Source: Sideroxydans sp.
GTDB taxonomy: Bacteria > Pseudomonadota > Gammaproteobacteria > Burkholderiales > Gallionellaceae
Assembly (NCBI GenBank): GCA_013140695.1
Contig: JABFSI010000057.1
Coordinates: forward strand, 1 to 34,051
DNA length: 34,051 bases
Direction: 5' to 3'
Shown: piece by piece, positions 1-14,334 of the stretch
Numbering within the stretch: position 1 is the stretch's first letter
Layout of the letters: every line of letters starts with the position of its first letter
Made by a program: the position numbers and the translations under genes
The notes under the pieces: generated by a model
What the model saw: only the letters and a program-made list of their open reading frames with translations
The model's database searches: none
What the model was told of the DNA's origin: nothing

Positions 1-1656
1 CTCACCAGCTTTACACCGAGTACGGGCGCAGTGAACACAGCCATGGTGCTCACGGGTACAAAACTAGATGTTGTTACGGATGTGTTATTCACGGGCCCCG
101 CTCCTAGCACGGCCTTTGTAAGTGGCGGGATTGCCAGCAAAGCATCCACCACTATAGCCACCACCGTCCCCGCAACATTAAGCGCAGGCGACTACACTAT
201 TTCGGTCGTGCATCCGGGGGGTGAAGCGGTAGCGGCAAATAAATTTACGGTAACGGTGGTGGGGGGAAGCACAACCCCTACCGTGACTGGTTTTAGTCCG
301 AATACGGGCGCGGCAGGCACAGTGGTGACCATCACCGGAACGAATCTGGTTTTGGGCTTTCCCCCTGCGCCTACCGTAAAGTTTGGCACAACCAATGCGG
401 GCGGACCCTATACCAATGTGAGTAACACGGGAGTTACCTTTACTGTACCTGCGGGCTTGGCGGTTGGCACGCACACCCTCACCATCGGCGGGATGTCGGG
501 TGTACCAATGACGGTGGGGACGTTCACGGTGACGGCGGCACCAGCACCAGTGGTTGCTGTACCTGCTGCACCTGTAGGAATCTCAGCAACAGCGGCTAGT
601 GCTACTCAAATCGACTTGACCTGGACGGCGGTAGCAGGAGCAAGCAGCTACAACATCTATCGTGGTACGGCGGCAGGTGTGCTGGTGGGGGCGGCGAGCA
701 AGATCAACGCAACGCCCATTACGGTTACTACCTTCAACAACACAGGTTTGTTCGGTGCGACACCCTATTTCTACGTGGTCACTGCAGTTAATGTGAATGG
801 GGAAAGCGTTGGCTCTGCGGAAATGTCGGCAACGACCAGTGCTGTGCCTGTGGGGACAATTATTTCCACGGGGCCGGATTTGATCGTGCAAACTTTTTCC
901 GTGCAACAAACTGCGACAGGAGCCGCCGCACCACTACCCACACAAATTCAACTTTTTGTGTCGGGAGGGAATGCAGGGGTCCGCTACAACTTTTATCGAA
1001 GCACATTTCCGAATGTGGCAATTGCAGCAGCCAACTTGATTAATCCAACGCCTGCTAATGCTTTCTATCATGATAACGGATTGACTGCTGCAACCAAGTA
1101 TTACTACAAGGTTACGGCTGTGAACGCTGCGGGTGAAGGCCCTGCCTCGCCAGAGTTGGCAACAGTTACACCGTTGGCGACGCTCGGTAGTGGGGTTGGC
1201 TTGACCCTGACACCCGCTTTTGGCTTATTGGCATCAATGCCCAATGCAATCCCCTATCAAGGCGGCTCTGTATTGCCATCAGGTTATTATCCGACCGCGA
1301 GTACGGGAACGAGTATGTTTTTCTACGGAAACGTGGTTGCGGGTATGAATTCACTGCCACGATTTAATTTGGAATACCGTAAAGATTCAGTGAATACAGA
1401 ATTTATTACTCTAAATATTTTAAACGGAACCCTAAACACCAGCGCCGACTTGGATGTGCCAGCAGTTAACTTGCCCAATTTCAACACAGAAAAACGCTGC
1501 ACTTTGGGCGTGGTGGCTGGTGAAACAGATTGTGTAAGCAAAGGGATTACTTTGGATCGGCTCAACGGCACAGTTACGTTTGTAAATACGCCAATGATTG
1601 ATGTGGTTGGTACAGTCTTTTCAATCTCAGGATCGTATAGTTTCGTGCCGTTCTGA
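1..1656 (+). CDS. TIG/FN3-domain secreted protein, 5'-truncated by the window edge
   Basis: The reading frame is open from base 1, so the true start and any signal peptide lie outside the window; 551 codons are visible. The visible part reads as an IPT/TIG-like segment (SFTPSTGAV, nt 10–270), a second TIG domain (VTGFSPNTGAAGTVVTITG, nt 283–535), two fibronectin type III domains (nt about 560–840 and 890–1180; ATPYFYVVTAVNVNGES and ATKYYYKVTAVNAAGEG are typical FN3 G-strand segments), and a C-terminal domain (nt about 1183–1653) shared with the proteins at 3281 and 4039. That domain ends in a Cys-X10-Cys pair, GITLDRLNGTVTF and a terminal FVPF. TIG and FN3 are extracellular beta-sandwich modules used in adhesion or polysaccharide binding; the exact role is unknown. 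By analogy with its neighbours it is probably a lipoprotein, but that cannot be seen. A terminator follows directly. Confidence 0.85.
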   Translation, partial: LTSFTPSTGAVNTAMVLTGTKLDVVTDVLFTGPAPSTAFVSGGIASKASTTIATTVPATLSAGDYTISVVHPGGEAVAANKFTVTVVGGSTTPTVTGFSPNTGAAGTVVTITGTNLVLGFPPAPTVKFGTTNAGGPYTNVSNTGVTFTVPAGLAVGTHTLTIGGMSGVPMTVGTFTVTAAPAPVVAVPAAPVGISATAASATQIDLTWTAVAGASSYNIYRGTAAGVLVGAASKINATPITVTTFNNTGLFGATPYFYVVTAVNVNGESVGSAEMSATTSAVPVGTIISTGPDLIVQTFSVQQTATGAAAPLPTQIQLFVSGGNAGVRYNFYRSTFPNVAIAAANLINPTPANAFYHDNGLTAATKYYYKVTAVNAAGEGPASPELATVTPLATLGSGVGLTLTPAFGLLASMPNAIPYQGGSVLPSGYYPTASTGTSMFFYGNVVAGMNSLPRFNLEYRKDSVNTEFITLNILNGTLNTSADLDVPAVNLPNFNTEKRCTLGVVAGETDCVSKGITLDRLNGTVTFVNTPMIDVVGTVFSISGSYSFVPF

Positions 1657-1678
1657 TTTCTTGGCTGCGCTTTATTGC

Positions 1679-1707
1679 AACCGCCCGACTTGTTCGGGCG
1701 GTTTCGC
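1679..1707 (+). terminator. Rho-independent terminator, copy 1 of a repeated type
   Basis: A perfect 8-bp stem CCGCCCGA/TCGGGCGG closes a CTTGT loop (1681–1701) and is followed by a T-rich tail. It starts 24 bp after the stop of the preceding gene. Near-identical copies follow four other genes in this window. Confidence 0.85.
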
Positions 1708-1766
1708 TTCTAGCCCCCCAATTTAAATCTGTTGCAATAAAGCGAATTCAGTTTTGTTTTGTGAAG

Positions 1767-3050
1767 TTAGCTTGTCGTCATTACACGGCTGCTCGCCAAA
1801 GTCGAGAGAGGGACGGCCCAAAGTGGGCAATCATTCACGCGGCCTAGCGGCAAAGTGTCGATGCCGTCGTATAAAACAATGCCTAATTTGAATTGTTGTG
1901 GAGCCAGTTGGGCTAATTTTTTCAAGCCCACCAAGTCGCTCACCGAAACGCTTGCCGCCGCTTTCACTTCGATGCCGATGATCTCGCCAGAGGCGTTCTC
2001 AATCACGAAATCAACTTCGTACTGATCTTTGTCGCGGTAGTAATAAATTTCATATTCTCCTTCGGCCCAGGTGATGTGTTTGCGCAACTCGGCAAACACA
2101 AAACTTTCCAGCAGTTGCCCAAATAGTTTGCGTTGTTGCAGTGCATCAGAAAAATCAACCATCACGCTTAATAAACCCGAATCCACAAATTGCAGCTTGG
2201 GCGTTTTTAACAATCTTGAGAGGCGATTCCCTGACCACACGTGAACGCGTTGCATCAAATACATTTGCTCAAACACGGTGATGTATTTGCTTGCGGTTTT
2301 GTGGTTGATACCAATCTGTCCACCCAATTGGCTGTAATTGCAAAGCTGGCCTGATGTGTGTGCTAATGCCTTGAGCAGATGCGGTGCTTGGTCTAATTTA
2401 TCGAGGCTGGCGATGTCTTTAATGTCGCGTTGCATGAGCGATTCTATGTACTGTCGCGCCCATGTTTTACGTCGACGGTTGTTGCTTCGAGTGAGCGCTT
2501 CGGGGTAACCGCCCATACTTACTTTTTCTACTAGCGCCTCACCTACAACAGGGGCGGAGGCGATCAGCATCTCGCCTCCGAACAAGGCATCAAGCCACTT
2601 CGAAGAAGCGTTTGGAGCAATCGCCATTTCACATTGCGCCAACGGTAAAAGAGTCAACGTTTCCATACGCCCCGCCAGTGAATCAGCAAGGGTGGGAAGC
2701 ATCATTAAATTAGCAGATCCCGTCAGCAAAAATCGACCCGGCCTACGATCTTCATCAACGGATTTTTTAATCGCCAACAGCAAATTGGGCGCACGTTGCA
2801 CTTCGTCTATCACCGCGCTGCCGATACTACGAATCAGCCCAACGGGATCTTCTTGTGCCGCCACCCGAGTGGCTTCGTCATCCAACGTTAGATAGCGTCG
2901 CGTCGCACCAGCCAACTGGCGCACCAAAGTGGTTTTGCCCGCCTGCCGTGGGCCATTTATCAATACCACGGGCGTATCGTTTAGTGCATCCAGCACTCGT
3001 GGCAAGATGGCGCGCGGGAAAATAGAGGGTTCAATTTTGGCTTTAGACAT
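1767..3050 (-). CDS. AAA ATPase with DUF4143 and PD-(D/E)XK-like C-terminus
   Basis: This 427-aa protein belongs to the AAA_14/DUF4143 family of predicted ATPases. It has a Walker A GPRQAGKT at residues 33–40, a Walker B-type AVIDEV at 79–84, and LLTGSAN at 108–114, which resembles a sensor segment. The DUF4143 part includes a winged-helix-like stretch (LGGQIGINHKTASKYITVFEQ). The C-terminus carries EVDFVIE...GIEVKAA, the usual D...ExK nuclease-like signature of this family. The biochemical role of the family is not settled; members are common in accessory regions. It is the only minus-strand gene in the first 14 kb and sits between two plus-strand lipoprotein genes, where it seems to have been inserted into a spacer. 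The ATG at 3050 is preceded by a weak GGAAACC-like site. Confidence 0.88.
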   Translation of the reverse strand: MSKAKIEPSIFPRAILPRVLDALNDTPVVLINGPRQAGKTTLVRQLAGATRRYLTLDDEATRVAAQEDPVGLIRSIGSAVIDEVQRAPNLLLAIKKSVDEDRRPGRFLLTGSANLMMLPTLADSLAGRMETLTLLPLAQCEMAIAPNASSKWLDALFGGEMLIASAPVVGEALVEKVSMGGYPEALTRSNNRRRKTWARQYIESLMQRDIKDIASLDKLDQAPHLLKALAHTSGQLCNYSQLGGQIGINHKTASKYITVFEQMYLMQRVHVWSGNRLSRLLKTPKLQFVDSGLLSVMVDFSDALQQRKLFGQLLESFVFAELRKHITWAEGEYEIYYYRDKDQYEVDFVIENASGEIIGIEVKAAASVSVSDLVGLKKLAQLAPQQFKLGIVLYDGIDTLPLGRVNDCPLWAVPLSTLASSRVMTTS

Positions 3051-3174
3051 AGCGGTTTCCTCTCAAACTATTGGGATTATTCTATCGTCTATTTGGGATT
3101 AATAAGTGAATAATTTGGGAATTTATACCTGAAAGCAGGGGCTAATGTCGTGAAAATACAACAAAAATCATGGG

Positions 3175-3224
3175 CCTACCCCCTAGAACGCGGGATGGCG
3201 TAAATCGCTTTTACTCGTCACCAT
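3175..3224 (+). promoter_or_regulatory. Conserved upstream block A, copy 1
   Basis: Identical over 24 bp (3177–3200) and again over 18 bp (3207–3224, GCTTTTACTCGTCACCAT), with a 6-bp variable spacer, to the block at 8715–8765. Both lie 56–58 bp before the start of a gene whose signal peptide begins MLK..QLFAAA. The block contains ACCCCCTAGAACGCGGG and is preceded by an AAAATACAAC tract. It is probably a promoter/operator or 5' UTR element; no known sigma-factor or riboswitch consensus was recognised. Confidence 0.55.
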
Positions 3225-3280
3225 ACCTTTAGAGTTTTTGACTGTCAGAGACTCAATTTAATTTTGCAAAGGGGAGCGCC

Positions 3281-3808
3281 ATGCTTAAAACCAAGATTCA
3301 ATTATTCGCCGCCGCGTTAATTACTTCACTGTTAGTGGCTTGTGGGGCGGGAGGTAAATCAACTGCGGCAACACCTGTTACGCCAACCCCAACCCCAGCG
3401 GCACCTTCGGCCAGTTTGGGTCTCACAATGACGCCCCCCTTTAGTGGCTTATCGACCTTCGCGAACATCGCGCCGATGATAGCGGGTACTCAATTTTTAT
3501 ATATGAAGGGTACAGATATCGTCACCATTACATATTACCCAGCCACATCAACAGTGCCGGCCAACTTATATATTCTGTTTAATCAGGGCGCGGTAACCAG
3601 CGGACTAAATGCACCGCGTCTTGGATCGGCTGGCTACATTTGCATGGAGGGAGCCAATTCAAGCAACTTCCCACTCTGTTCTAGTTTGGGCGTGAGTTTT
3701 GATAAGGTAGCAGGCAAGGTGAGCTTTACTAATACACCGATGGCAGCAACGGGATCTACAACTACGCTATACACAATGACGGGCACATTGACTTTCACCC
3801 CGTTCTAA
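3281..3808 (+). CDS. Small lipoprotein made only of the shared F-x-P-F C-terminal domain
   Basis: A 175-aa protein with a type II signal peptide: MLKTK, a hydrophobic stretch, then lipobox LVAC with Cys21 as the predicted lipidation site. A Thr/Pro/Ala-rich linker (about residues 28–44) follows. The rest matches the last ~130 residues of the proteins at 1–1656 and 4039–5805: LGLTMTPPFSG, a Cys-X11-Cys pair, LGVSFDKVAGKVSFTNTPM and a terminal FTPF. It therefore shows that the C-terminal domain can stand alone on the membrane surface. The start is supported by AAGGGGAG 6–13 bp upstream. Its signal peptide and upstream DNA closely match those of the 1123-aa protein at 8824, whose mature part is unrelated. 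Function unknown; the domain was not recognised as any named family. Confidence 0.88.
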   Translation: MLKTKIQLFAAALITSLLVACGAGGKSTAATPVTPTPTPAAPSASLGLTMTPPFSGLSTFANIAPMIAGTQFLYMKGTDIVTITYYPATSTVPANLYILFNQGAVTSGLNAPRLGSAGYICMEGANSSNFPLCSSLGVSFDKVAGKVSFTNTPMAATGSTTTLYTMTGTLTFTPF

Positions 3809-3831
3809 ATTTCGCATTGTTCCTTTAGAGA

Positions 3832-3861
3832 AGCCGCCCGACTTGTTCGGGCGGTTTTGCT
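3832..3861 (+). terminator. Rho-independent terminator, copy 2
   Basis: Stem CCGCCCGA/TCGGGCGG with loop CTTGT at 3834–3854, followed by TTTTGCTTCT. Identical in stem and loop to the copy at 1681. Confidence 0.85.
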
Positions 3862-3879
3862 TCTAGTTTTCCAAAAAAT

Positions 3880-3933
3880 GGCTGTTGCAAAAACGCAACA
3901 TTATTTGCCTAGCACCCCCCGCGTTTAAGGGAT
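3880..3933 (+). promoter_or_regulatory. Conserved upstream block B, copy 1
   Basis: Matches 12277–12329 with one substitution and one extra C. It contains an inverted repeat TGTTGC-N6-GCAACA, then TTATTTGCCTAGCACCCC and GCGTTTAAGGGAT. It begins about 25 bp after a terminator and lies 105 bp before the start at 4039. The same layout is seen at the second copy. Probably a regulator-binding site or promoter; the regulator is unknown. Confidence 0.55.
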
Positions 3934-4028
3934 TGCGCGAAGTGAATTGAGCCTTGAGAATCTGCCTGCGCTAGAAGCGCGCGCAATTCATCGCCCCTAT
4001 CGTCTGCGCAAACCGATTACTCACTCAT

Positions 4029-4033
4029 GGAGG
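4029..4033 (+). promoter_or_regulatory. Ribosome binding site that fixes the start at 4039
   Basis: GGAGG lies 5 bp before the ATG at 4039. It overlaps the in-frame ATG at 4027, so that upstream ATG is unlikely to be the start. Confidence 0.75.
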
Positions 4034-4038
4034 TTGCA

Positions 4039-5805
4039 ATGTCGCTCACCCGTAAATTTATGCTTACCTTGTTGGTCGCACTGCTCATGGCGGGTTGTGG
4101 CGGCGGCGGTAGCACCCCCACAAACGGATCACCCAATACAGGCACGCCTACTGCTACGGTACCTGCGGTACCAACAGGGGTGGTAGCAACTCTTCAGGCC
4201 GCTTCGGTTATCAACATTGGTTGGACGGCGGTAACGGGCGCAACTGGGTATAACGTGTATCGCGCTACGACTTCCCCCGTTGCCATCTCGGCGACCAGCA
4301 AAGTCACAGCAACTCCCGTTGCAGATACCGCATTTGGCGATTCTGGTTTGACTGCTGGGACACAGTATTTTTACAAAGTAACCGCAGTGAATGCGGCAGG
4401 TGAAAGTGCAGTTTCAACGGAGGTGACGGCCACCACCAGCGCCGCAGGGACACCAACCCCAACACCAACCGTGACAGGATTTAGTCCGAGTTCGGGTGCA
4501 GTGGGAACTGTGGTCACCATCACCGGAACGAATCTGGTTTTGGGCTTTCCCCCTGCGCCTACCGTTAAGTTTGGAACGGTTAATGCAGGCACCCCTTATA
4601 CCAATGTAAGCAACGCAGGGGTTACGTTCACTGTGCCAGCAGGATTGGCGGCTGGCACGTACACCCTCACCATCGGCGGGATGTCGGGTACGCCATTGAC
4701 GGTGGGTACGTTCACGGTGACGGCGGCAGTAGTGCCTGCGGCACCAGCAGCACCAACTGGAGTGGTGGCAAACGCGTTCAGTGCGACTCAAATCGACTTG
4801 AGTTGGACGGCGGTAGCAGGAGCAACGGGGTACAACATTTATCAATCGACATCGCCAGGTGTGGTCGTCAGTGCGGCTAATAAAGTTGGCACAAAAACCA
4901 TCACGTACTTCAGCAGCACTCCTTTGTATGGTGCGACACCGTACTACTATGTTGTTACTGCGAGGAATGCGGTGGGTGAAAGTATCGGCTCTGCTGAAGT
5001 AAGCGCCACAACGAGAGCAATTCCTGTTGGCGTAACTGCACCAACTGGGGCTGGTAGCCCAGATCAAGTTGGCAACTTTCAAATTGTTGGCTCGGTTATG
5101 AATCCACCTTTAGCTGGTCAAATAGGCATATATGTGGGCGTTTTCACTGGCACGGACGGAATTAATGTGTATCGAAGCTCAACGCCAAATGTGATGATTA
5201 CCCCGACTAATTTAGTTAACCTCAGGCCCATTGGCATTACCTCAATGTATGGCTCGACTTGGTCAGGTTATACCGACAGTGGATTGGCACCAGGCACTAA
5301 GTACTACTACAGAACAACGGAAGTTAATGCGGCTGGTGAGGGGCCTGGTTCAACGGAACTGATTGCACGTACACCTCTTGCTTCAGTTGGCGCTGGGGCA
5401 GGGCTTACACTATCACCAGCATTTAAGGGGGTTGCAGCAATTCCCAATAGGATTCCATATGAACTAACCCAAGGAGGAGTATTTACGAGCGCATATGAAG
5501 ATGCGGTATCTAGAGAGTTTAGGTTTTCGTATATGGTTGACGCTGTAAATGGGGATCGACTAGCTTTGGCTTTAACTGATACGGTGGGTGGGGTTGATTC
5601 TGCGAACTTGGATGTCACTGTTGTTGGCCCATCTTGTGCAGTAACTACAGCAGTTGGCTATCCAACTTGTGCTTCACTTGGAATTACGTTAGACAGAGTT
5701 GCAGGCAGCATAGGTTTTAGCAGTACTCCGATGAAAAGCGTTAGCGGTACCACCTTGGGCAGTGTCTTTAATTTAAGTGGCACACTGAACTTCACCCCGT
5801 TCTAA
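4039..5805 (+). CDS. FN3/TIG-domain lipoprotein with shared C-terminal domain
   Basis: A 588-aa lipoprotein starting MSLTRKFMLTLLVALLMAGC; lipobox LMAGC puts the lipidated Cys at residue 20, followed by a Gly/Ser/Thr/Pro linker. Domain order is FN3 (about 45–135, ATGYNVYR and TQYFYKVTAVNAAGES), TIG (about 145–230, VTGFSPSSGAVGTVVTITG), FN3 (about 235–325), a more divergent FN3 (about 345–440) and the shared C-terminal domain (about 450–588) ending in a Cys-X10-Cys pair, LGITLDRVAG and FTPF. It is a close paralogue of the truncated gene at 1–1656, with tracts of identical DNA (for example 4516–4565 against 328–377). Architecture suggests a cell-surface adhesion or carbohydrate-binding role, but no ligand can be assigned. 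An upstream block B and a downstream terminator frame the gene. Confidence 0.88.
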   Translation: MSLTRKFMLTLLVALLMAGCGGGGSTPTNGSPNTGTPTATVPAVPTGVVATLQAASVINIGWTAVTGATGYNVYRATTSPVAISATSKVTATPVADTAFGDSGLTAGTQYFYKVTAVNAAGESAVSTEVTATTSAAGTPTPTPTVTGFSPSSGAVGTVVTITGTNLVLGFPPAPTVKFGTVNAGTPYTNVSNAGVTFTVPAGLAAGTYTLTIGGMSGTPLTVGTFTVTAAVVPAAPAAPTGVVANAFSATQIDLSWTAVAGATGYNIYQSTSPGVVVSAANKVGTKTITYFSSTPLYGATPYYYVVTARNAVGESIGSAEVSATTRAIPVGVTAPTGAGSPDQVGNFQIVGSVMNPPLAGQIGIYVGVFTGTDGINVYRSSTPNVMITPTNLVNLRPIGITSMYGSTWSGYTDSGLAPGTKYYYRTTEVNAAGEGPGSTELIARTPLASVGAGAGLTLSPAFKGVAAIPNRIPYELTQGGVFTSAYEDAVSREFRFSYMVDAVNGDRLALALTDTVGGVDSANLDVTVVGPSCAVTTAVGYPTCASLGITLDRVAGSIGFSSTPMKSVSGTTLGSVFNLSGTLNFTPF

Positions 5806-5828
5806 ATTTCAATGTTGTTTCAAGAGGA

Positions 5829-5858
5829 ATCGCCCGACTTGTTCGGGCGGTTTCGTTT
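5829..5858 (+). terminator. Rho-independent terminator, copy 3
   Basis: CGCCCGA/TCGGGCG stem with the same CTTGT loop at 5831–5849, then TTTCGTTTTG. One outer stem base differs from the other copies (T at 5830). Confidence 0.8.
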
Positions 5859-5875
5859 TGTGGGGTTGTGTCGGC

Positions 5876-5881
5876 TAGAAT
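5876..5881 (+). promoter_or_regulatory. Candidate -10 element for the histidine kinase gene
   Basis: TAGAAT, 26 bp before the ATG at 5908. The layout (terminator tail TTTCGTTTTG, about 16 bp, TAGAATrCT, then GCACATCATG) is also seen before gshA at 14326–14386. No good -35 is visible; the assignment is inference. Confidence 0.4.
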
Positions 5882-5907
5882 ACTTTCTCCAATTTCTAAT
5901 GCACATC

Positions 5908-7764
5908 ATGCGTAATTATTTTAGTAACGCGTTGCACGCGCTTCACCGCTACAGCAGCAAGGCGGGGTTGATAGTCGCGGTGACTTTAGGGTTTGCATAT
6001 ACATTGCCAGCGCAGGCTAATAGCAGTGTGCTGCGTTTAACTGAGGCGCAAGCAGTAACGCTAGGTGAGACTGTGCAACTCCCTCACCAATGGACACACG
6101 ACCCTGCGGGCATGTTGGGTGTGGTGCATTACCGCCTCACTTTTCCCAAGCCAACGCAATCGAATGCGTTGCAGGCGGTGTATTTGCCGCACATTAATAT
6201 GGCGGTGAAGGTGCAGCTAAACGGGCAGGTGATTGGCGATAGCGGCTTTGATAGTGAGCCAATGGGGCGTTATTTTCATACGCCGATTTTGTATTCGTTT
6301 TCTTCCAACTTGTATGTGGAAGGTAACAATACCTTGGACATTGAAATTAAAGCCTATGCCAATCGTTTTGGGGCGTTATCGCCTGTCAGCATTGGCGAGT
6401 ACTCAATGCTGGAGCCGATATTTGCAAGGGACTATTTCGAGAACCACACCTTGCAGGTGATTAGCACGGCGCTCTCGGCGATTTTTGTATTGCTGTTGAT
6501 TCCTGTCTGGTGGATGCGCCGCAAGAGCATGTTTGCTTGGTTTATAGGTGGGTCAGCAGCATGGAGCGTAAGCAGCTTGAACGTTTTTTTGCATGACGTA
6601 CCGCTGCCAGCAGCGTTGTGGGAATGGATTATTCATATCTCGGTGGGACTCATTCCTTTATGTTACGGCTTATTCATTTTCCGTTTGAGTGACTTGAGTT
6701 ATCCCAAATTAGAACGATTCATGCTGCTTGCTTCTGGGGTTTTCATTGCCTTCTCTACCTTGTTTGCGGGCACGGCTCAATTCTTTTTCCTAACCAGTTT
6801 ATGGCACGCGAGTTTGCTCATTTTCGGCGCTTTTGCGATTTACCGTTTGTTCAGATTTTTAGTCAGCAAGCGCGACTTCAGTGTGTTTTACATCGCCTCG
6901 GCTTTGCTGTTGGTGTGTGTGCTGGCTGTGCACGATTTGGTGATTCAGCAACTCACCGCGCAACAAAATGGCTTCTGGCTAAATTACGCCGCTCCCTTAT
7001 TGCTTACCGCGATGGGACTATTGATGGTGAGGCAATTTGTCACGGCCGTGCAAACAGCCGAGTCTTTGAATGTGTCCCTTGAATCTCGCGTGGCTGCCGC
7101 GCAAACCGCGCTAGGGGCAAGCTACGCCGAACTCCGCGTATTAGAGATGAACCGTGCGGCGCTAGATGAGCGTGAACGCATCTATCGCAATCTGCATGAT
7201 GATGTGGGCGCGAAGTTGCTTGGCTTGGTGATTTCTGCACAACGCGCTAATCAAACGCGCGAGGCCGATATGGCTCGCTCCGCTCTGCAAGATTTGCGTG
7301 ATGTGGTTTCGCGATCCTCTACATCGTCCATTTTGCTCGCGGATTTAATGGCGGATTGGCGCGCCGAAACAAATCAGCGCATCAGCAGCACGCAATTAAA
7401 TTTGCAGTGGAATTCCTCCGGCTTGGAAGTTTCCACCCTGATGGTCAATCCTGAAGCCGCGCTTAATTTAAGCCGTATCCTGCGTGAAGCGATCAGCAAT
7501 GTTCTACGTCACGCAGAGGCGTCTTGCATCACGCTAGCTGTGCGTATCGAAGCTGAAATGCTATGCCTCGATATTGCCGATGACGGCGTAGGGTTGGCTG
7601 AAAATTTCAAAGCACATCGCGGCATGGAGAGCATGCGCGCTCGCGCCGAAGCCTTGCAAGGCACGCTGCATTTGGAAGAGATTAGCCCACAAGGCATAGC
7701 GCTCCACCTAAAAGTCCCCGTCTCATCTTTAGCTGCCATCGAACTTCCCCTAGTCACTCACTAA
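5908..7764 (+). CDS. Membrane sensor histidine kinase, NarL-type HisKA_3
   Basis: The 618-aa form from 5908 starts with a signal peptide (to about residue 34, ending TLPAQA). It then has a periplasmic beta-rich region (about 35–180) of the 7TMR-DISM-like sensor kind, and about seven membrane helices (about 185–375). A short coiled coil follows, then the HisKA_3 dimerisation/phosphoacceptor motif YRNLHDDVGAKL with His430. The HATPase_c part shows EAISNVLRHAEA (N box), DIADDGVGL (G1) and GMESMRARAEALQG. It would autophosphorylate and pass phosphate to a LuxR/NarL-type response regulator, none of which is in the window. The frame is open back to 5812, but starts before 5899 would lie across the terminator; 5899 is a second possible ATG. 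The gene sits inside the lipoprotein locus and 10 bp before the hydrolase gene. Confidence 0.88.
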   Translation: MRNYFSNALHALHRYSSKAGLIVAVTLGFAYTLPAQANSSVLRLTEAQAVTLGETVQLPHQWTHDPAGMLGVVHYRLTFPKPTQSNALQAVYLPHINMAVKVQLNGQVIGDSGFDSEPMGRYFHTPILYSFSSNLYVEGNNTLDIEIKAYANRFGALSPVSIGEYSMLEPIFARDYFENHTLQVISTALSAIFVLLLIPVWWMRRKSMFAWFIGGSAAWSVSSLNVFLHDVPLPAALWEWIIHISVGLIPLCYGLFIFRLSDLSYPKLERFMLLASGVFIAFSTLFAGTAQFFFLTSLWHASLLIFGAFAIYRLFRFLVSKRDFSVFYIASALLLVCVLAVHDLVIQQLTAQQNGFWLNYAAPLLLTAMGLLMVRQFVTAVQTAESLNVSLESRVAAAQTALGASYAELRVLEMNRAALDERERIYRNLHDDVGAKLLGLVISAQRANQTREADMARSALQDLRDVVSRSSTSSILLADLMADWRAETNQRISSTQLNLQWNSSGLEVSTLMVNPEAALNLSRILREAISNVLRHAEASCITLAVRIEAEMLCLDIADDGVGLAENFKAHRGMESMRARAEALQGTLHLEEISPQGIALHLKVPVSSLAAIELPLVTH

Positions 7765-7774
7765 AGGAGCGCAA

Positions 7775-8533
7775 ATGAGCCACGCCCGTAATCGCATTAT
7801 TTACATTCATGGTTATGAACATCACGGGCAGGGCTACACCATGCCCGCAATCGAATCATTAGTGCGGAGTACGATTCCCAATACCTGTTATTCGAGTTAC
7901 GTCGAACACTGGTCACCATTGATGGACACTCGCAACCACACATTCAAAGAAGTGGCGGAACAGTTGGCGCAAAAAATCCGTGACGGCGGCGCATATGAAA
8001 AGCAGTACGCCGTGTGCCATAGCATGGGCGGTTTAATTGCGCGTCAGATGTGTCTTATGCCCGGGGTTCGTTTTGATGGGATTCTGACGTTATGTTCGCC
8101 GCACGAGGGGACAGCGTCGTGGATAAGCGTAGGCAGCAACTATGCTGATTGGTATTTTGGCGCAGGGCCTAAATCATTGATTGCTGAATCGCCGGACTTG
8201 CGCTTACTCAACGAAAGCGATGAAAAACATCATCGTCTGTATCACTGCGTTGGTGTTGAGTGCTTTGGAAAAACGATTTTGCATAATGGCCTTAACGAAA
8301 ATGACTCGGTGGTGGAGCTTAAAAGTCAGCACCTCCATAATTCGAATAGCCCTATCCAGCGTTACACAATGCGCGTTGACTATGGCAATCACGATGTTCC
8401 CCAGGGCGCCACGGGCGACAAACTATGCCCTCACAATTTCGTGGTGGATCATGCGGAGGATACCTCGCAAGGCCACATCTCTTTCGATAACACGCCCTTA
8501 ATTAATGCTATTCGCAATTGCATCAAGCTTTAG
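7775..8533 (+). CDS. Alpha/beta hydrolase (lipase/PGAP1-like)
   Basis: A 252-aa cytoplasmic protein with an alpha/beta hydrolase fold. The oxyanion region is RIIYIHGYEHHG (residues 7–18) and the nucleophile elbow is AVCHSMGGL with Ser83. Candidate acid and histidine residues lie in YGNHDVPQG and QGHISFDNTPL near the C-terminus. The elbow reads C-H-S-M-G where G-H-S-M-G is usual. It resembles triacylglycerol lipase/PGAP1-like esterases, but the substrate cannot be read from sequence. The start is well supported by AAAGGAG 5–11 bp upstream, and the gene lies 10 bp after the kinase gene, so the two are probably cotranscribed. Confidence 0.82.
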   Translation: MSHARNRIIYIHGYEHHGQGYTMPAIESLVRSTIPNTCYSSYVEHWSPLMDTRNHTFKEVAEQLAQKIRDGGAYEKQYAVCHSMGGLIARQMCLMPGVRFDGILTLCSPHEGTASWISVGSNYADWYFGAGPKSLIAESPDLRLLNESDEKHHRLYHCVGVECFGKTILHNGLNENDSVVELKSQHLHNSNSPIQRYTMRVDYGNHDVPQGATGDKLCPHNFVVDHAEDTSQGHISFDNTPLINAIRNCIKL

Positions 8534-8628: not shown

Positions 8629-8714
8629 AGATTGGACTTAATCAGACCTTCCTTAAGGCATAAGCGCCTATCCACAGGCTATACATCGTTGCAAAAATAC
8701 AACAATAAATTTTG

Positions 8715-8765
8715 CCTTACCCCCTAGAACGCGGGATGGCGCAGTTTGCTTTTACTCGTCACCAT
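8715..8765 (+). promoter_or_regulatory. Conserved upstream block A, copy 2
   Basis: The second copy of the block seen at 3175–3224, with the same 24-6-18 layout of identical, variable and identical bases. It lies 58 bp before the start at 8824. Just upstream is GTTGCAAAAATACAAC, which resembles the inverted repeat of block B. This hints that blocks A and B are variants of one control region. Confidence 0.55.
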
Positions 8766-8823: not shown

Positions 8824-11800
8824 ATGCTTAAACCGAACTTTCAATTATTCGCTGCCGCTTCATTCACTTCACTGCTGGTTGCGTGTGGAGGCGGGGGCAG
8901 CACACCTGTGGCGCCTGTTACGCCTGTTACGCCTGTTGCCACCACGGCCAGCGTTACGGGCACGGCACTCGGCGGGCGTTTTTTGAGCGGACAGGTATGC
9001 GCTTTCGCCATTGTTAGCGGCGCAAAAAGCACCTCGCTGGGCTGCGCTACTATTGACCCAGTCTTATCCACGTATCAAATAATCGTCAGCAATTACACGG
9101 GGGAGGTGTTGTTAGAAATTGCTGGCAACGCCACCCACGATGACGAAGCCAATCCCAATGACAACACTACGGGCACACCCGTCGCAAACGGCAGCTTGCG
9201 ATCCATTGCCACGGTCAGTGCAAATGGTATCGCTACCGCCGCACTCACTCCTTTTACAGAAGCGGCCATTCGTAGCGCAGGTAACTTAAACAAAGCTGCT
9301 GTTATTGCCGCCGCACAAACTCTTTCTAGTAATCTCGGCCTCGGCTCTCTTGATTTGTTCGCTACCCAGCCTTCATTAGCGGCTACCACTGGCGCACAAC
9401 TGGGTTACAAAGAAGCATTGCGCGCACTTTCGCAAATGCAATACGCCGCACCCGCTTACAACAACAATCTGGGCGGTTATATCGACTACGTGGTGCAAAA
9501 CCAAAGCTCACTTTCAACACAACTACAAACGCAATTGAACATCGGGCTGTCTTCAAGTTGTGCGATTACCAATAACGCGCTGACCTGTTTAGCTCCCGGA
9601 ACACCTGTGACACCTGTGACACCTGTGACACCTGTGACACCTGTGACACCTGTGACACCTGTGACACCTGTTGCCTCTGGCTCTGGTTTTGCCGCACTAA
9701 ATCTTTGCCCAAACAATTCATGTCGCGCACCTGCGTTGACGGGCGGCATTACGCCTACGTTGCCTACGCCGCTACCAACCCTCACAAGATTGGTTGGCAC
9801 CGATCCTTCTGCCAGTATTGCTAGCGCTTGGGCAGGCGCATCTGCCGCCATGAAAACGCAAATTTTCGGTAATCGCGCGGTGACAAAAGCCGATGTGAAC
9901 GTGAAATACCAAGTACAAACTGGCCAATTCTTTCTCAACGAAAACTACAAATACTCAACGACCGAAAAGAATGCCAGCGGTCTGGCTGTAGGTTATAGCA
10001 ACTACGACATGGGGGCAGATAAGCTCGCTTTTACGGCAGATGACGTCCGCCTATCGCACACCATCCCCACGACAGCGATGCCCGCATCGGCCACCCCCAG
10101 TGGTGCGTGTTTTGACCATCCAGGAGCGGATGCCATTTGGGGTACCGCTGACGATCGCAACCCTGGGACATATTGCCCCAGCGGAGCAAGTACGACCTTG
10201 ACCGGATTGCTGGGTAATGATGGTGTAGGACACCATATTGCGATTGCAACCTTAAACCCTGGCCTAGATAGAACTTTTTTTAATGCGGATGACACAGCGC
10301 CGCTAGGCTGGGATTTAATTTCGGTGAACGCACAAGGCTTCTCGACTCAAATTACCCATTACAGCGGAACACCCGCAGGTGCGAACTCCATAGTGCGTTA
10401 CACGGTATTTATGTTAGATGCGAATGGCAACGCTTTAACAACTCAAATCTATCAACACCCTGGAACAGATGGCGCATGGTTCACGGCTGACGACATTCCG
10501 CAAACTGCTAGTGTGGGGGTCATCAGCGGCACACACTTAACGCACATAGCAACCTATTCATCAGGCGCAGACTTTACTTGGTTCAACGCCGATGACGTAG
10601 TAACTAGCTGGAACTATTTTTCTTATGATGCCGCTGGTAGGTCGCAACTAGCTGCCTCCCATACAGGTATAGGCGTGGATGGAATTTGGTTCACCGCTGA
10701 TGATATTGCCAGTGCCGCATTAACGCTTCACGATGCCGCAGGTAACGTGGTGGTGACCGCTGCTTTGGCAGGAACAGGGTTAGATGGAAAGTGGCTCACC
10801 GCGGATGATTTGATGGGAACAGGCTACACCTTGCTGGCTTATCAAGCACAAGGGCTACAAACCCTGAACATTCCCTTTACAGGCAAGGGCGCGGATGGTC
10901 TGTGGTTCACCGCAGACGATGTGCCGGCCGCCGCTTATTGGGCGAGAACCTATGATGCCAACGGCTTTCAAACTGGGGAGTTTGTTTTCAACGGGGCGGG
11001 GGCGGATGGCCAACCCATTACCGCTGATGACACAGTGAGTTCGTATTTGATGCTAAAACTGGATGCCAGCGGTAATAGAATCGCAAGGGTAGATGGCACA
11101 CAGGGCGCAGATGGCATTGCCTTTACAGGTGACGACGTGCCATATGGTTATTCCATGGCCTTAGGGATCAAATCGGCCGGAATGGGTATTACTTACGTAG
11201 GACGCGGCGCAGATTTAGCTTGGTTCACGGCGGATGACCAACTGAGTACTTCCCCGATTACTAAAGTCATCTACGATGCACAGCATCGACTTATTGAATA
11301 TAGCCGCTTCAGCCTAGGCGCGGATGCTCTTCCCCTTACTGCGGATGACTTATTATTATCTTCTATGACTTATGTTTATGACGATCAAGGTGTGGGGATT
11401 GCCTCTTCCAATATCGTTGCTGGCGCAGATGGCATTGCGTTCACTGCGGACGATTTGCCAGGGACATTTTACTCAGCGGGAATATATGATGCACAAGGCA
11501 ATAAGTGTAGCTATGGGGGCGCAGGCGCGGATAACATTTGGCATACAGCAGATGACGTGATTAAAAGTTGCAGTCATCAAACGTTAGATGCACAGGGTCG
11601 AATTACACGATTGTTCGTTTCGGGTGGCGCAGGCGCTGATGGCGTATGGGGGTCGCTCGATGATTATGTTGCTATCTATTACATCTACAGCTACACAACT
11701 TTAGGTGTCACTGGAAAAGCCGAAATGCGAGCTGGGGCGGACTATCTAATGGGTACAGCAGACGACACCACCAGCCCTATCACAAATGTAGGTCGAGTTG

Positions 11801-12195
11801 ATACATTTGCTAACGGCTCTAAAGTCGATTACTACAACTCAGGGGTTGATGGCGTGTGGTTCACGGCGGATGATGTAGCTTCTTCAATTGGTTACGATTC
11901 TGACATAACGAGTGCTGCTGGCCGCACGATAAGGAGAGGTTTTGCTTCATCGTTTAGCAATCAAGGAGGTGTTTGCTGTGGGGTTGATGCACTTGCGGGA
12001 ACTGCCGATGATTTTAGTAGTTGGACTGAAGACACTCGGGACGCGGCTGGACAACCCGTATCCTACATTCAATACGGTGGGAACGGTGGCGGGGGGCCAG
12101 GCATTATCCCGCCCGCAATTGGTGCAGATGGCATTTGGTTCACTGCCGATGACGTAATCACACAAGGTACTTATTACAACCGTGTTTGGCCATAA
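8824..12195 (+). CDS. Large lipoprotein with 19 G-x-D-G-x-W-F-T-A-D-D repeats
   Basis: A 1123-aa lipoprotein: MLKPNFQLFAAA... with lipobox LVAC and lipidated Cys21. Residues about 40–250 form an N-terminal domain with a beta-rich start (VTGTALGGRFLSGQVCAFAI) and a helical second half. A TPV-repeat linker (about 259–283) follows. From about residue 395 to the end there are 19 copies of a motif best written (G)xDGxWFTADDV, spaced mostly 35–50 residues apart and alternating with YDAxGxx-like segments reminiscent of RHS/YD repeats. The Asp-rich loops could bind Ca2+, but this is inference. The start is supported by AAAGGAA upstream. Function unknown; a surface-exposed filament-like or binding protein is plausible. 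It shares its upstream block and signal peptide with the gene at 3281. Confidence 0.88.
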   Translation: MLKPNFQLFAAASFTSLLVACGGGGSTPVAPVTPVTPVATTASVTGTALGGRFLSGQVCAFAIVSGAKSTSLGCATIDPVLSTYQIIVSNYTGEVLLEIAGNATHDDEANPNDNTTGTPVANGSLRSIATVSANGIATAALTPFTEAAIRSAGNLNKAAVIAAAQTLSSNLGLGSLDLFATQPSLAATTGAQLGYKEALRALSQMQYAAPAYNNNLGGYIDYVVQNQSSLSTQLQTQLNIGLSSSCAITNNALTCLAPGTPVTPVTPVTPVTPVTPVTPVTPVASGSGFAALNLCPNNSCRAPALTGGITPTLPTPLPTLTRLVGTDPSASIASAWAGASAAMKTQIFGNRAVTKADVNVKYQVQTGQFFLNENYKYSTTEKNASGLAVGYSNYDMGADKLAFTADDVRLSHTIPTTAMPASATPSGACFDHPGADAIWGTADDRNPGTYCPSGASTTLTGLLGNDGVGHHIAIATLNPGLDRTFFNADDTAPLGWDLISVNAQGFSTQITHYSGTPAGANSIVRYTVFMLDANGNALTTQIYQHPGTDGAWFTADDIPQTASVGVISGTHLTHIATYSSGADFTWFNADDVVTSWNYFSYDAAGRSQLAASHTGIGVDGIWFTADDIASAALTLHDAAGNVVVTAALAGTGLDGKWLTADDLMGTGYTLLAYQAQGLQTLNIPFTGKGADGLWFTADDVPAAAYWARTYDANGFQTGEFVFNGAGADGQPITADDTVSSYLMLKLDASGNRIARVDGTQGADGIAFTGDDVPYGYSMALGIKSAGMGITYVGRGADLAWFTADDQLSTSPITKVIYDAQHRLIEYSRFSLGADALPLTADDLLLSSMTYVYDDQGVGIASSNIVAGADGIAFTADDLPGTFYSAGIYDAQGNKCSYGGAGADNIWHTADDVIKSCSHQTLDAQGRITRLFVSGGAGADGVWGSLDDYVAIYYIYSYTTLGVTGKAEMRAGADYLMGTADDTTSPITNVGRVDTFANGSKVDYYNSGVDGVWFTADDVASSIGYDSDITSAAGRTIRRGFASSFSNQGGVCCGVDALAGTADDFSSWTEDTRDAAGQPVSYIQYGGNGGGGPGIIPPAIGADGIWFTADDVITQGTYYNRVWP
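9601..9672 (+). repeat. In-frame 9-bp tandem repeat encoding Thr-Pro-Val
   Basis: Seven perfect copies of ACACCTGTG (9601–9663) are followed by one variant copy ending in T (9664–9672). Each unit encodes Thr-Pro-Val, forming a linker between the N-terminal domain and the repeat domain. A similar but shorter CCTGTTACG tract lies near 8916–8939. Copy-number change would alter linker length without a frameshift. Confidence 0.9.
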
Positions 12196-12225: not shown

Positions 12226-12258
12226 AACCGCCCGACTTGTTCGGGCGGTTTTGTTTTC
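12226..12258 (+). terminator. Rho-independent terminator, copy 4
   Basis: Stem CCGCCCGA/TCGGGCGG with loop CTTGT at 12228–12248, then TTTTGTTTT. It lies 33 bp after the stop of the 1123-aa lipoprotein gene. Confidence 0.85.
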
Positions 12259-12276: not shown

Positions 12277-12329
12277 GGCTGTTGCAATAACGCAACATTA
12301 TTTGCCTAGCACCCCCGCGTTTAAGGGAT
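12277..12329 (+). promoter_or_regulatory. Conserved upstream block B, copy 2
   Basis: The second copy of the block at 3880–3933, with the inverted repeat TGTTGC-N6-GCAACA (12279–12296). It lies 79 bp before the start at 12409 and 28 bp after a terminator. Confidence 0.55.
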
Positions 12330-12408
12330 AGACAACTTTTGGTAGATATTTTATTTTTCATCCTGCAAATTTTTGCTGATTTTTTATTTCAATTTGAGAG
12401 GGATACTC

Positions 12409-14280
12409 ATGTTGCTAAATCGTACGATTCGTAATTTCGCCACACTCGGCGTCACATTGATCACAGTGGCCTCACTTGCATTAACAGCTTGCGGCGGCGG
12501 CAGTAGTGGTGTTACCACAACCCCGCCTCCTAATGGCGGAACAACAGTGCCCAGTGCGCCGACTGGTGTGTCTCTCATCTCAGTCAATGCGAATCGAAAT
12601 TTCACTATTGCTTGGAATTCGGTAACAGGTGCGACTGGCTACAACATCTACCGTTCTACAACCTCACCTGTTGAGATAAATCCCTCGAATAAGATCAATC
12701 CCTCTCCTATTGCTTCCACCTCAACAAGTTTCACCGATAACAACACACTCGCGGCTTCGACACTTTATTACTACCGTGTTACTGCACTTAATGCAGCAGG
12801 TGAGGGGAGTGCTTCGGGTGAAGCGTCGTCTACCACGGCAGCAGCAGGTGTAAGCCCTACTGTCACTGGATTCAGTCCCATCAGCGGCGTAGTTGGCACG
12901 ACGATTACGATTACGGGTACGAATTTGAATAGCTACGCATTCCCACCGATGGTGATGTTTGGCACAACACCCTCTCCCAGCGTAACAGCGGCAGGTAGCG
13001 GTAACAGCGTGACTGCAGAAGTTCCAAATGGTTTGGCGCTAGGCAATCACGCAGTCACTATCGGTGCCATCAATGGGACATTAGATGGCATCACAGGGAC
13101 AGCTATTCCAGTGGGCACTTTCGAAGTTGTAGTTGCCCCGCCGCCTGCTGCAACTGGCCCTGTGGGACTGACACCGACTGTCCTCGCATTCAATCAAATC
13201 AGCCTTACATGGACTGCCAATGCGACCAGTGCTTATTTGATCTATCGTTCTACCACCCCTAATTTCACGGTCTCTGGTGCCAATTTGATCAACAGTCATA
13301 GCGGTCAAAAAATTCTCTTGGGCAGCCCTTACGTTGACAACAATTTGTCAGCCGCTACGACTTACTATTACAAGATTACTGAGATCCCCGCAGGCGGAAG
13401 TGAGTCCCAGCCAAGTACGCAAGTCAGCGCAACCACTAATGCACTTTCTGGGATCGTGGGTGTGGATTGGCTGAATAATCCAATCGGCACAGGTGCGGGT
13501 ATTACCAGCGTTGTGTGGTCTGGCACCCAGTATGTTGCTGTCGATATGATTGGCAAGGCGCACGTTTCAACTGATGCAATAACTTGGACGAGTTACAACA
13601 CGGGAGTGATACTGCCTCTCACGGCGGTTACATGGTCAGGAACTCAGTTTGTTGCTGTAGGACAAACAGGTAGCGTTGTGACTAGCCCCGATGGTATTAC
13701 TTGGACAGTGCAGACTTCAGGTTCGAACAGCTACCTTTTTGAAGTCACTTGGTCAGGAACGCAATTTGTTGCCGTAGGTGGAAACAGCACCGTGCTGACT
13801 AGCCCTGATGGAATTACGTGGACATTGCAAAATTCCAGCCTCCAAGTGATCGCATCACTCACCAGTGTGACTTGGTCAGGCAGTCAATTTGTTGCTGTAA
13901 GTTCAGGCGGGCATGTCATTACCAGCACAGACGGTGTGATTTGGAGTACTGCAACTTCTTTTACCACCAACAATTTGCAAAGCGTTGTTTGGAATGGCAG
14001 TAAGTTTTTTGCGGTGGGCGCAGGCGGCCAAGTCTTATCAAGCCCTGACGGAACAACATGGTCGCAAGCCGCAATTGGAAATTCAACCACACTAAATTCT
14101 CTGATCTGGACAGGCCAACAGTTCATAGCAACGGGTAATAGCGGCGTTATTTTACGCAGCCCTGACGGCGTGACTTGGACAACCGCCCCATCTGGTACCA
14201 CGTTGCAGCTCAACTCAATTACAGGCAGCGGCAACACCTATGTGATTGTTGGTAATGGAGTTGCATTGAAATCTTTATAA
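12409..14280 (+). CDS. FN3/TIG lipoprotein with C-terminal seven-unit propeller-like domain
   Basis: A 623-aa lipoprotein: MLLNRTIRNFATLGVTLITV..., lipobox ALTAC (Cys28), then a Gly/Ser/Pro linker. Domain order is FN3 (about 48–140), TIG (about 145–245, VTGFSPISGVVGTTITITG), FN3 (about 250–345) and a C-terminal region (about 360–623) of seven ~38-residue units. Units are of the form LTSVTWSGTQFVAVGxxGxVxTSPDGITWT; the last is incomplete, as expected if the N-terminal strand closes a seven-bladed beta-propeller. It lacks the F-x-P-F domain of its FN3/TIG relatives. The start is chosen because GAGAGGGA lies 6 bp upstream; an in-frame ATG at 12373 would add 12 residues ahead of the signal peptide. 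Probably a surface protein; ligand unknown. Confidence 0.86.
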   Translation: MLLNRTIRNFATLGVTLITVASLALTACGGGSSGVTTTPPPNGGTTVPSAPTGVSLISVNANRNFTIAWNSVTGATGYNIYRSTTSPVEINPSNKINPSPIASTSTSFTDNNTLAASTLYYYRVTALNAAGEGSASGEASSTTAAAGVSPTVTGFSPISGVVGTTITITGTNLNSYAFPPMVMFGTTPSPSVTAAGSGNSVTAEVPNGLALGNHAVTIGAINGTLDGITGTAIPVGTFEVVVAPPPAATGPVGLTPTVLAFNQISLTWTANATSAYLIYRSTTPNFTVSGANLINSHSGQKILLGSPYVDNNLSAATTYYYKITEIPAGGSESQPSTQVSATTNALSGIVGVDWLNNPIGTGAGITSVVWSGTQYVAVDMIGKAHVSTDAITWTSYNTGVILPLTAVTWSGTQFVAVGQTGSVVTSPDGITWTVQTSGSNSYLFEVTWSGTQFVAVGGNSTVLTSPDGITWTLQNSSLQVIASLTSVTWSGSQFVAVSSGGHVITSTDGVIWSTATSFTTNNLQSVVWNGSKFFAVGAGGQVLSSPDGTTWSQAAIGNSTTLNSLIWTGQQFIATGNSGVILRSPDGVTWTTAPSGTTLQLNSITGSGNTYVIVGNGVALKSL

Positions 14281-14302: not shown

Positions 14303-14334
14303 AGCCGCCCGACTTGTTCGGGCGGTTTCGTTTT
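14303..14334 (+). terminator. Rho-independent terminator, copy 5
   Basis: Stem CCGCCCGA/TCGGGCGG with loop CTTGT at 14305–14325, followed by TTTCGTTTTG. It ends the lipoprotein locus, before gshA. Confidence 0.85.

Follow-up and report, generated by a model that had tools for sequence, protein, structure and literature searches.

A small C-terminal domain with two conserved cysteines in lipoproteins of Sideroxydans and its relatives

Outer-membrane lipoproteins with FN3 and TIG modules are a recognised kind in Gram-negative bacteria, and in Bacteroidota the type IX cargo has a C-terminal domain that is read for sorting to the surface. Gallionellaceae and Geobacteraceae are known for iron cycling, and the iron oxidisers and the Geobacteraceae must both handle minerals at the cell surface. 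A pangenome study describes the Gallionellaceae as an iron-cycling group (PMC10734462). A lipoprotein can leave the cell via the type II secretion system (T2SS), an example being the pullulanase PulA (PMC7857515). An eight-stranded barrel is reported for all predicted Slam-dependent lipoproteins (PMC5449769), and the CR domain of ChtA has 11 strands and a disulphide loop, the CR domains needing an axial tyrosine (PMC12494546). Here, we analysed 34,051 nucleotides of Sideroxydans sp. (assembly GCA_013140695.1, contig JABFSI010000057.1, positions 1 to 34,051 of the forward strand), called the window throughout. The window corresponds to contig C105 in a genome of 2.5 Mb with a completeness of 99.6%. 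Three of its genes encode proteins, P1, P2 and P3, that share a C-terminal domain. This domain probably forms an exchangeable head at the distal end of lipoproteins in the outer membrane, carried on an FN3/TIG-type stalk, on another N-terminal region or alone.

A preliminary description of the window had proposed a common C-terminus for the proteins ending at 1656, 3808 and 5805, and every motif listed there was found, with E-values far beyond chance. In whole-genome searches, P1 matched P3 with E = 2.1e-18 and P2 matched P3 with E = 2.9e-9, while P2 against P1 gave 8.4e-4, covering the last 45 residues only. The domain has a length of 131-154 residues in the three proteins. It contains GLT(L/M)(T/S)PxF, the cysteine pair (C-X10-C in P1 and P3, C-X11-C in P2), a central segment, NTPM in P1 and P2 or STPM in P3, and at the stop FVPF in P1 and FTPF in P2 and P3. 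The central segment had been described as (G/S)(I/V)(T/S)(L/F)D(R/K)xxG and is present in all three, but its first residue is always G (GITLDRLNG, GVSFDKVAG and GITLDRVAG in P1, P2 and P3, respectively). No fourth copy was seen in the window's genome when P2 was searched to E = 10 or in the profile searches.

Conservation extends beyond the three paralogues to 14 more copies in 11 other genomes, giving a total of 17 copies in 12 genomes. The domain lies at the protein C-terminus in 17/17 copies, and all 17 have the tail F-x-[PA]-[FY] at the stop. The F-x-P-F that had been thought invariant holds for the three window copies and for 13 of the 17, but three copies end with P-Y and one with A-Y. 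Exactly two cysteines, with 8 to 25 residues between them, were found in 16/16 copies counted (the G954 copy stands outside this count). The columns that are invariant in a 16-row alignment are Cys, Gly, Phe, Gly and Phe. We infer that the two cysteines form a disulphide around the loop of 8-25 residues.

A lipobox, scored with a lenient pattern and followed by Gly or Ser, was present in 15/15 copies with a complete N-terminus; this count leaves out two truncated copies, P1 and one G115 copy. The earlier view that these are secreted lipoproteins was borne out for the complete copies; in P1 no lipobox is visible, as window base 1 is also the first base of the contig and the 5' end of the gene is cut off. 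The lipid anchor and the C-terminal position of the domain can be read from the sequence. In three copies the domain is preceded by a lipobox and a linker only (P2, 175 aa; G039, 193 aa; G029, 193 aa). These copies, together with a confident model of the P3 copy and a fair model of the P2 copy, agree with the proposal that the domain folds independently.

Different synonymous codons encode the tail in different copies (TTC/TTT, CCG/CCC/CCA and TAC/TAT), which argues that selection acts on the protein. A repeat at the DNA level was rejected as the cause of the shared ends, since the same residues use other codons in other genomes. P2 and P3 share a 32-nt stretch across the stop with 91% identity.

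The predicted fold is of 10-11 strands, with the F-x-P-F tail placed after the last strand. The AlphaFold2 model of the P3 copy, made with 11 sequences, is all-beta, comprising 11 strands and lacking any helix of four or more residues; the P2 model has 10 strands in a similar order (scores in Table 1). In the P3 model the last strand comprises residues 126-134 and the tail, residues 135-138, lies outside it, and 9 of the 11 strands are only 3-8 residues long. Integral outer-membrane beta-barrels, the substrates of the beta-barrel assembly machinery (BAM), have a C-terminal aromatic residue within the last transmembrane strand, and their strands have about 9 or more residues. A transmembrane barrel with a BAM signal was rejected on the P3 model, in which the aromatic tail comes after the final predicted strand and short strands predominate. 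As part of the best explanation, the segment would represent a new family of small all-beta domains with two cysteines.

Foldseek returned nothing at E <= 0.001 in the PDB or among viral models. With VIA-align, whose own note warns that unrelated models often give Z under 8, the best Z was 5.9 for P3 (99 residues, 4.3 A, cyclase barrels) and 3.3 for P2 (58 residues, 3.0 A). The HtaA/ChtA CR domains, the Qbeta coat protein and designed barrels were common to the structural lists of P3 and P2. TbpB, fHbp and other known barrels had no entry in the structural lists shown, which is no proof of absence.

The preliminary description recognised no named family, and in Pfam, NCBIfam, PHROGs and the PDB no confident match to an existing family was obtained. 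The best Pfam matches were DUF7846 with E 0.0055 in 1/14 rows, which is below the cut-off of that family, and RhiE_B with E 0.02 in 1/14 rows. In NCBIfam the best E was 0.047, with three families that each matched 1/16 rows, and PHROGs matched 0/16 rows at E <= 0.01. Among PDB sequences the best E was 0.59 with alignment A3 and 0.84 with alignment A7. Because no curated family matches, the domain family appears undescribed in Pfam, NCBIfam and PHROGs. Among the titles listed from the open-licence literature on Gallionellaceae and Gallionella, none concerned such a domain. In the available portion of the Gallionellaceae pangenome paper (PMC10734462) the terms 'fibronectin' and 'type II secretion' are absent and 'lipoprotein' occurs once, for LolD.

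The domain has a patchy distribution, both among bacteria related to neutrophilic iron oxidisers and within a Geobacteraceae group. The window's family, with relatives titled Gallionella, Sideroxydans, Gallionellaceae and Nitrosomonadales, has 14 copies in 10/158 genomes. A profile made from the three window copies reached 10/158 family genomes, and a 14-row profile gave the same ten at E <= 1.1e-27. The preliminary description had expected many hits at the C-termini of lipoproteins; the hits were found at this position but were few. Weak partial matches in the family genomes G003, G147 and G152 (E 6.6e-5 to 0.0028) were not counted as copies. Searches of the window's order gave matches in 2/399 genomes, both of its own family, and searches of its phylum at E <= 0.01 matched 8/398 genomes, one of which is that of the window itself; at most nine candidates were scored per genome here, and copies can be missed. 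The seven other phylum matches (E 9.1e-4 to 0.0094) are near chance for 398 genomes at this threshold and were not counted.

A first contig scan gave 33 pattern stretches, none of which was confirmed. The contigs of 84,980 species were scanned with a degenerate DNA pattern that covers the central motif but not the C-terminal tail. This pattern detected eight stretches, which is a lower bound, as it fits 9 of 14 alignment rows and misses the G954 copy. Six of them were in records titled Gallionella, Sideroxydans, Gallionellaceae or Nitrosomonadales, on contigs already known from the profile search. The other two were new and both in one metagenome-assembled genome (MAG) titled Geobacteraceae, a group that we take to belong to another phylum than the window's family. 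In both, the frame continues to F-T-P-Y or F-T-A-Y at the stop, which confirms the tail independently because the tail is absent from the pattern. A further genome of this family, G954, has one copy, so that the family including the Geobacteraceae-titled record has 3 copies in 2/76 genomes; in the wider Geobacteraceae group, 2/141 genomes of the order and 1/395 genomes drawn from the phylum were matched, the latter search also scoring no more than nine candidates per genome. One of the contigs of the MAG carries cbiM and cbiD, and the 3' hairpin of the G954 copy resembles, by eye, that of one of the MAG copies; both argue weakly against a stray Gallionella contig. The domain lipoprotein of G954 (L083:7403-12477) has 68% identity over 372 residues to a protein of a Gallionella-titled record, and its gene is near a phage-type integrase gene, which makes a recent transfer between the groups or a mis-binned contig possible for this copy. 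A further fragment of a domain copy with one in-frame stop lies just 3' of the intact gene of G140 (L018 / L033, G140:C252:2410-2514) and was not counted. An origin from phages or plasmids was dismissed: the DNA pattern matched no viral contig and PHROGs gave no match (no search of the phage collection was made), and the plasmid matches obtained with P3 were confined to its residues 254-462, the stalk.

In the tree of the domain, P3 pairs with a G115 copy (93/91), and none of 200 bootstrap trees (0%) joined P1, P2 and P3 in a single clade. A recent local triplication as the whole story is therefore unlikely, although only one branch of the tree is starred and the starred branches leave a single origin of the window copies possible. 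A 287-nt stalk segment of P1 (267-553) and P3 (4455-4741) has 83% identity, a sign of duplication or gene conversion between the paralogues. The contig break falls within P1.

What precedes the domain varies. Pfam scans of nine whole domain proteins identified FN3 in two of them, P1 and P3, and TIG in another two. Alignments to parts of the P1 or P3 stalk were obtained for five proteins, and two of these are among the five in which Pfam gave neither module. About half of the copies have FN3/TIG-type modules ahead of the domain; three have a bare linker and the remainder other regions. The protein encoded at 12373-14280 aligns with P3 across the lipobox and stalk (46% over 344 aa) and ends with another region (Table 1). 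In G140 and G069, nearby lipoproteins that contain TIG carry kelch and NHL repeats, respectively. Like anchors and stalks with different ends at one locus suggest that the heads are exchanged.

The terminators point the same way in the window. An identical 23-nt terminator is found on the + strand at 1682-1704, 3835-3857, 5831-5853, 12229-12251 and 14306-14328. With up to 2 mismatches there are exactly five in the genome, all in the window and placed after P1, P2, P3, 8824-12195 and 12373-14280, and the five copies fold strongly (z -3.8 to -5.7). Copy 3 falls within the opening codons of the next open reading frame (ORF) when this is read at its longest, so that the ORF probably starts later than 5812. 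A near copy of the 23-nt terminator was seen 3' of the G069 domain gene.

The lipid would anchor the protein in the outer membrane, the Ig-like FN3/TIG modules would serve as a stalk of adjustable length and the head would bind a surface ligand or partner. Paralogues would exchange their heads but retain anchor, stalk and terminator. The head is likely displayed on the outer face, possibly via the T2SS; export of the domain lipoproteins by this system is plausible because one copy sits within a T2SS gene run. Several observations weigh against a stalk with an exchangeable head. It offers no explanation why nothing ever follows the domain, the copies are few (17), and 5 of the 9 scanned proteins have no Pfam FN3 or TIG, P2 with no stalk at all among them. 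The structural matches are weak (no Foldseek hit at E <= 0.001, VIA-align Z of at most 5.9), so that no function can be read from the fold.

The main rival addresses the strict position of the domain. It holds that the domain is a C-terminal sorting module: a secretion machine, most likely the T2SS, would recognise its fold and aromatic tail and carry the lipoprotein to the surface. We consider this rather unlikely. In its favour are the C-terminal place in 17/17 copies and the F-x-[PA]-[FY] at the stop. The stand-alone copy of G039 (L059:7640-8218) lies between gspK and gspL in a run on one strand that reads G-H-I-J-K-[domain]-L-M-N-D, gspJ being assigned by position and the N-methylation motif only. 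However, only 1/17 copies lies in such a run, and in G027 (L076), the closest relative of G039 among the loci compared, K and L are adjacent without a domain gene. Of the 12 other GspK loci with the best scores, 9 have a gspL-like ORF immediately next to gspK, 2 have another ORF of 260 aa in between and 1 showed no gspL. A GspK match at E <= 1e-9 was found in 10/10 domain-bearing family genomes against 79/158 overall (hypergeometric P 0.0007), a cut-off that was picked after the fact, with related genomes whose kinship is ignored in P and with the Geobacteraceae-group genomes outside the test. The association depends on the cut-off, with 10/10 against 134/158 (P 0.18) at E <= 0.001 and 9/10 against 71/158 (P 0.003) at E <= 1e-10, and the GspK Pfam family also matches 7/14 control genomes, Gram-positives included. 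A CsgG-type ORF follows the G156 copy, which also fits a link to secretion, but the T2SS occurs in many genomes without the domain, the three stand-alone copies have no cargo besides the domain, and the same-stalk paralogue with a like signal peptide lacks the domain and would need another route. The more specific idea that the domain is a C-terminal passport in two iron-cycling groups, where the T2SS, or a dedicated partner encoded in it, recognises the fold and the F-x-P-[FY] tail and places varied lipoproteins on the outer surface, seems to us an improbable one. The tail as a recognition signal, suggested in the preliminary description, has indirect support from its place after the last predicted strand and from the same-stalk neighbour without the domain, but is not favoured.

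Two further explanations assign the domain to known beta structures. If it were the beta-barrel of a Slam-type surface lipoprotein such as TbpB, fHbp or HpuA, moved by a Slam/DUF560 pore, the N-terminal lipobox and the small C-terminal beta domain would be accounted for, and small barrels (OprF, streptavidin and designed barrels) are indeed among the weak structural matches. Pfam gave no TbpB or fHbp domain match, though, and no DUF560/Slam gene was found in the neighbours scanned, which did not include every neighbour or whole genomes; we regard this origin as very unlikely. The least credible of the explanations is a hemophore for haem or an iron ligand, akin to the HtaA/ChtA CR domain of Corynebacterium. 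HtaA CR1 matched P3 with Z 4.3 (100 residues, 3.5 A, 20% identity), ChtA CR matched P2 with Z 3.2 (105 residues, 4.5 A, 12% identity), and the carriers are in groups known for iron cycling. Against it, both structural lists also contain the Qbeta coat protein and designed barrels, and the Z-scores are within the background of common beta arrangements. Pfam matched HtaA in 0/14 rows, and neither Tyr nor His is invariant across the 16 rows, whereas the CR domains need an axial Tyr. A distal head that is exchanged between anchored stalks is the reading we retain as probable.

Table 1. Features of the window around the three domain genes (AF2, AlphaFold2; pLDDT, predicted local distance difference test; pTM, predicted template modelling score)
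Feature	Position	Strand	Description
P1	1..1656	+	ORF open at 5' end (contig start); stalk of FN3 (Pfam) and TIG-like (by eye) modules, then C-terminal domain
P1 domain copy	1192..1653	+	154 aa; Cys codons 1498-1500 and 1531-1533; end F-V-P-F
Hairpin terminator copy 1	1678..1709	+	after P1
P2	3281..3808	+	175-aa lipoprotein; lipobox LLVAC, short Thr/Pro/Ala linker, domain alone
P2 domain copy	3413..3805	+	131 aa; Cys codons 3641-3643 and 3677-3679; end F-T-P-F; AF2 pLDDT 79.2, pTM 0.77
Hairpin terminator copy 2	3831..3862	+	after P2
P3	4027..5805	+	592-aa lipoprotein; lipobox LMAGC; stalk of FN3 (Pfam) and TIG-like (alignment) modules; domain as putative head
P3 domain copy	5389..5802	+	138 aa; Cys codons 5635-5637 and 5668-5670; end F-T-P-F; AF2 pLDDT 90.3, pTM 0.83
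Hairpin terminator copy 3	5827..5858	+	after P3
Histidine kinase	5812..7764	+	also 3' of domain lipoprotein in G069 (69% / 579 aa)
Alpha/beta hydrolase (palmitoyl thioesterase/lipase-like)	7775..8533	+	syntenic in G069 (63% / 251 aa)
1123-aa lipoprotein	8824..12195	+	P2-like signal peptide (by eye), same terminator, no domain
Same-stalk lipoprotein	12373..14280	+	stalk and terminator of P3; repeat-type C-terminal region (DUF6242 match) instead of domain

The lipoprotein encoded at 8824-12195 contains GADGxxFTADD-type repeats (a 39-nt family with 9 copies) and gave no informative Pfam match; its Asp-rich repeats look like a metal-binding array. Two repeats were observed 5' of lipoprotein genes, one of 72 nt at 3153-3224 and 8694-8765 (85%) and one of 40 nt at 3880-3919 and 12277-12316 (98%), and these are perhaps shared promoter regions. 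A gene for an AAA/DUF4143 ATPase is located near the window copies and near the G140 copy. At L061:6860-7681 in G156, the CsgG-type ORF begins about 30 nt 3' of the domain gene. IS200-type (Y1) transposase genes are next 3' of two domain genes (L060:2918-3751 and L063:1422-2129). The 260-aa ORF between gspK and the gspL-like ORF was seen in L068 and L071 and is different from the domain gene.

With 17 copies, two conserved cysteines, a near-fixed terminal motif and a confident fold prediction, the family stands outside the curated libraries searched. The non-cytochrome surface proteins of both iron-cycling groups are little known. If the link to the T2SS is true, the domain would give a testable sequence handle on how this system recognises lipoprotein cargo, which is a long-standing question.

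Compared with the described systems, the domain resembles the C-terminal domain of type IX cargo in being a conserved beta domain that is always C-terminal on varied surface proteins, but it differs by its stand-alone copies and by the absence of an NCBIfam match to that domain (type IX genes were not searched). PulA-type T2SS cargo is likewise lipoprotein, and one copy of the domain is within a T2SS gene run, whereas no enzyme domain was found here. The Slam-dependent lipoproteins TbpB, fHbp and HpuA (PMC5449769) have in common with the domain proteins the lipid anchor and the small C-terminal beta domain; they differ in that no sequence match was obtained and no DUF560 partner was seen among the scanned neighbours. 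The HtaA/ChtA CR domains are alike in having about 11 strands, a similar length and a weak structural match to both models, but there is no sequence match and their conserved axial Tyr is missing in this domain. In relation to the modular FN3/TIG outer-membrane lipoproteins of Gram-negatives, the head matches no family, whereas the neighbours here end in DUF6242, kelch or NHL. Shared with this group are the lipobox, the low-complexity Gly/Thr/Pro linker and, in about half of the copies, FN3/TIG. In conclusion, the architecture of lipobox, modules and head is of a known kind.

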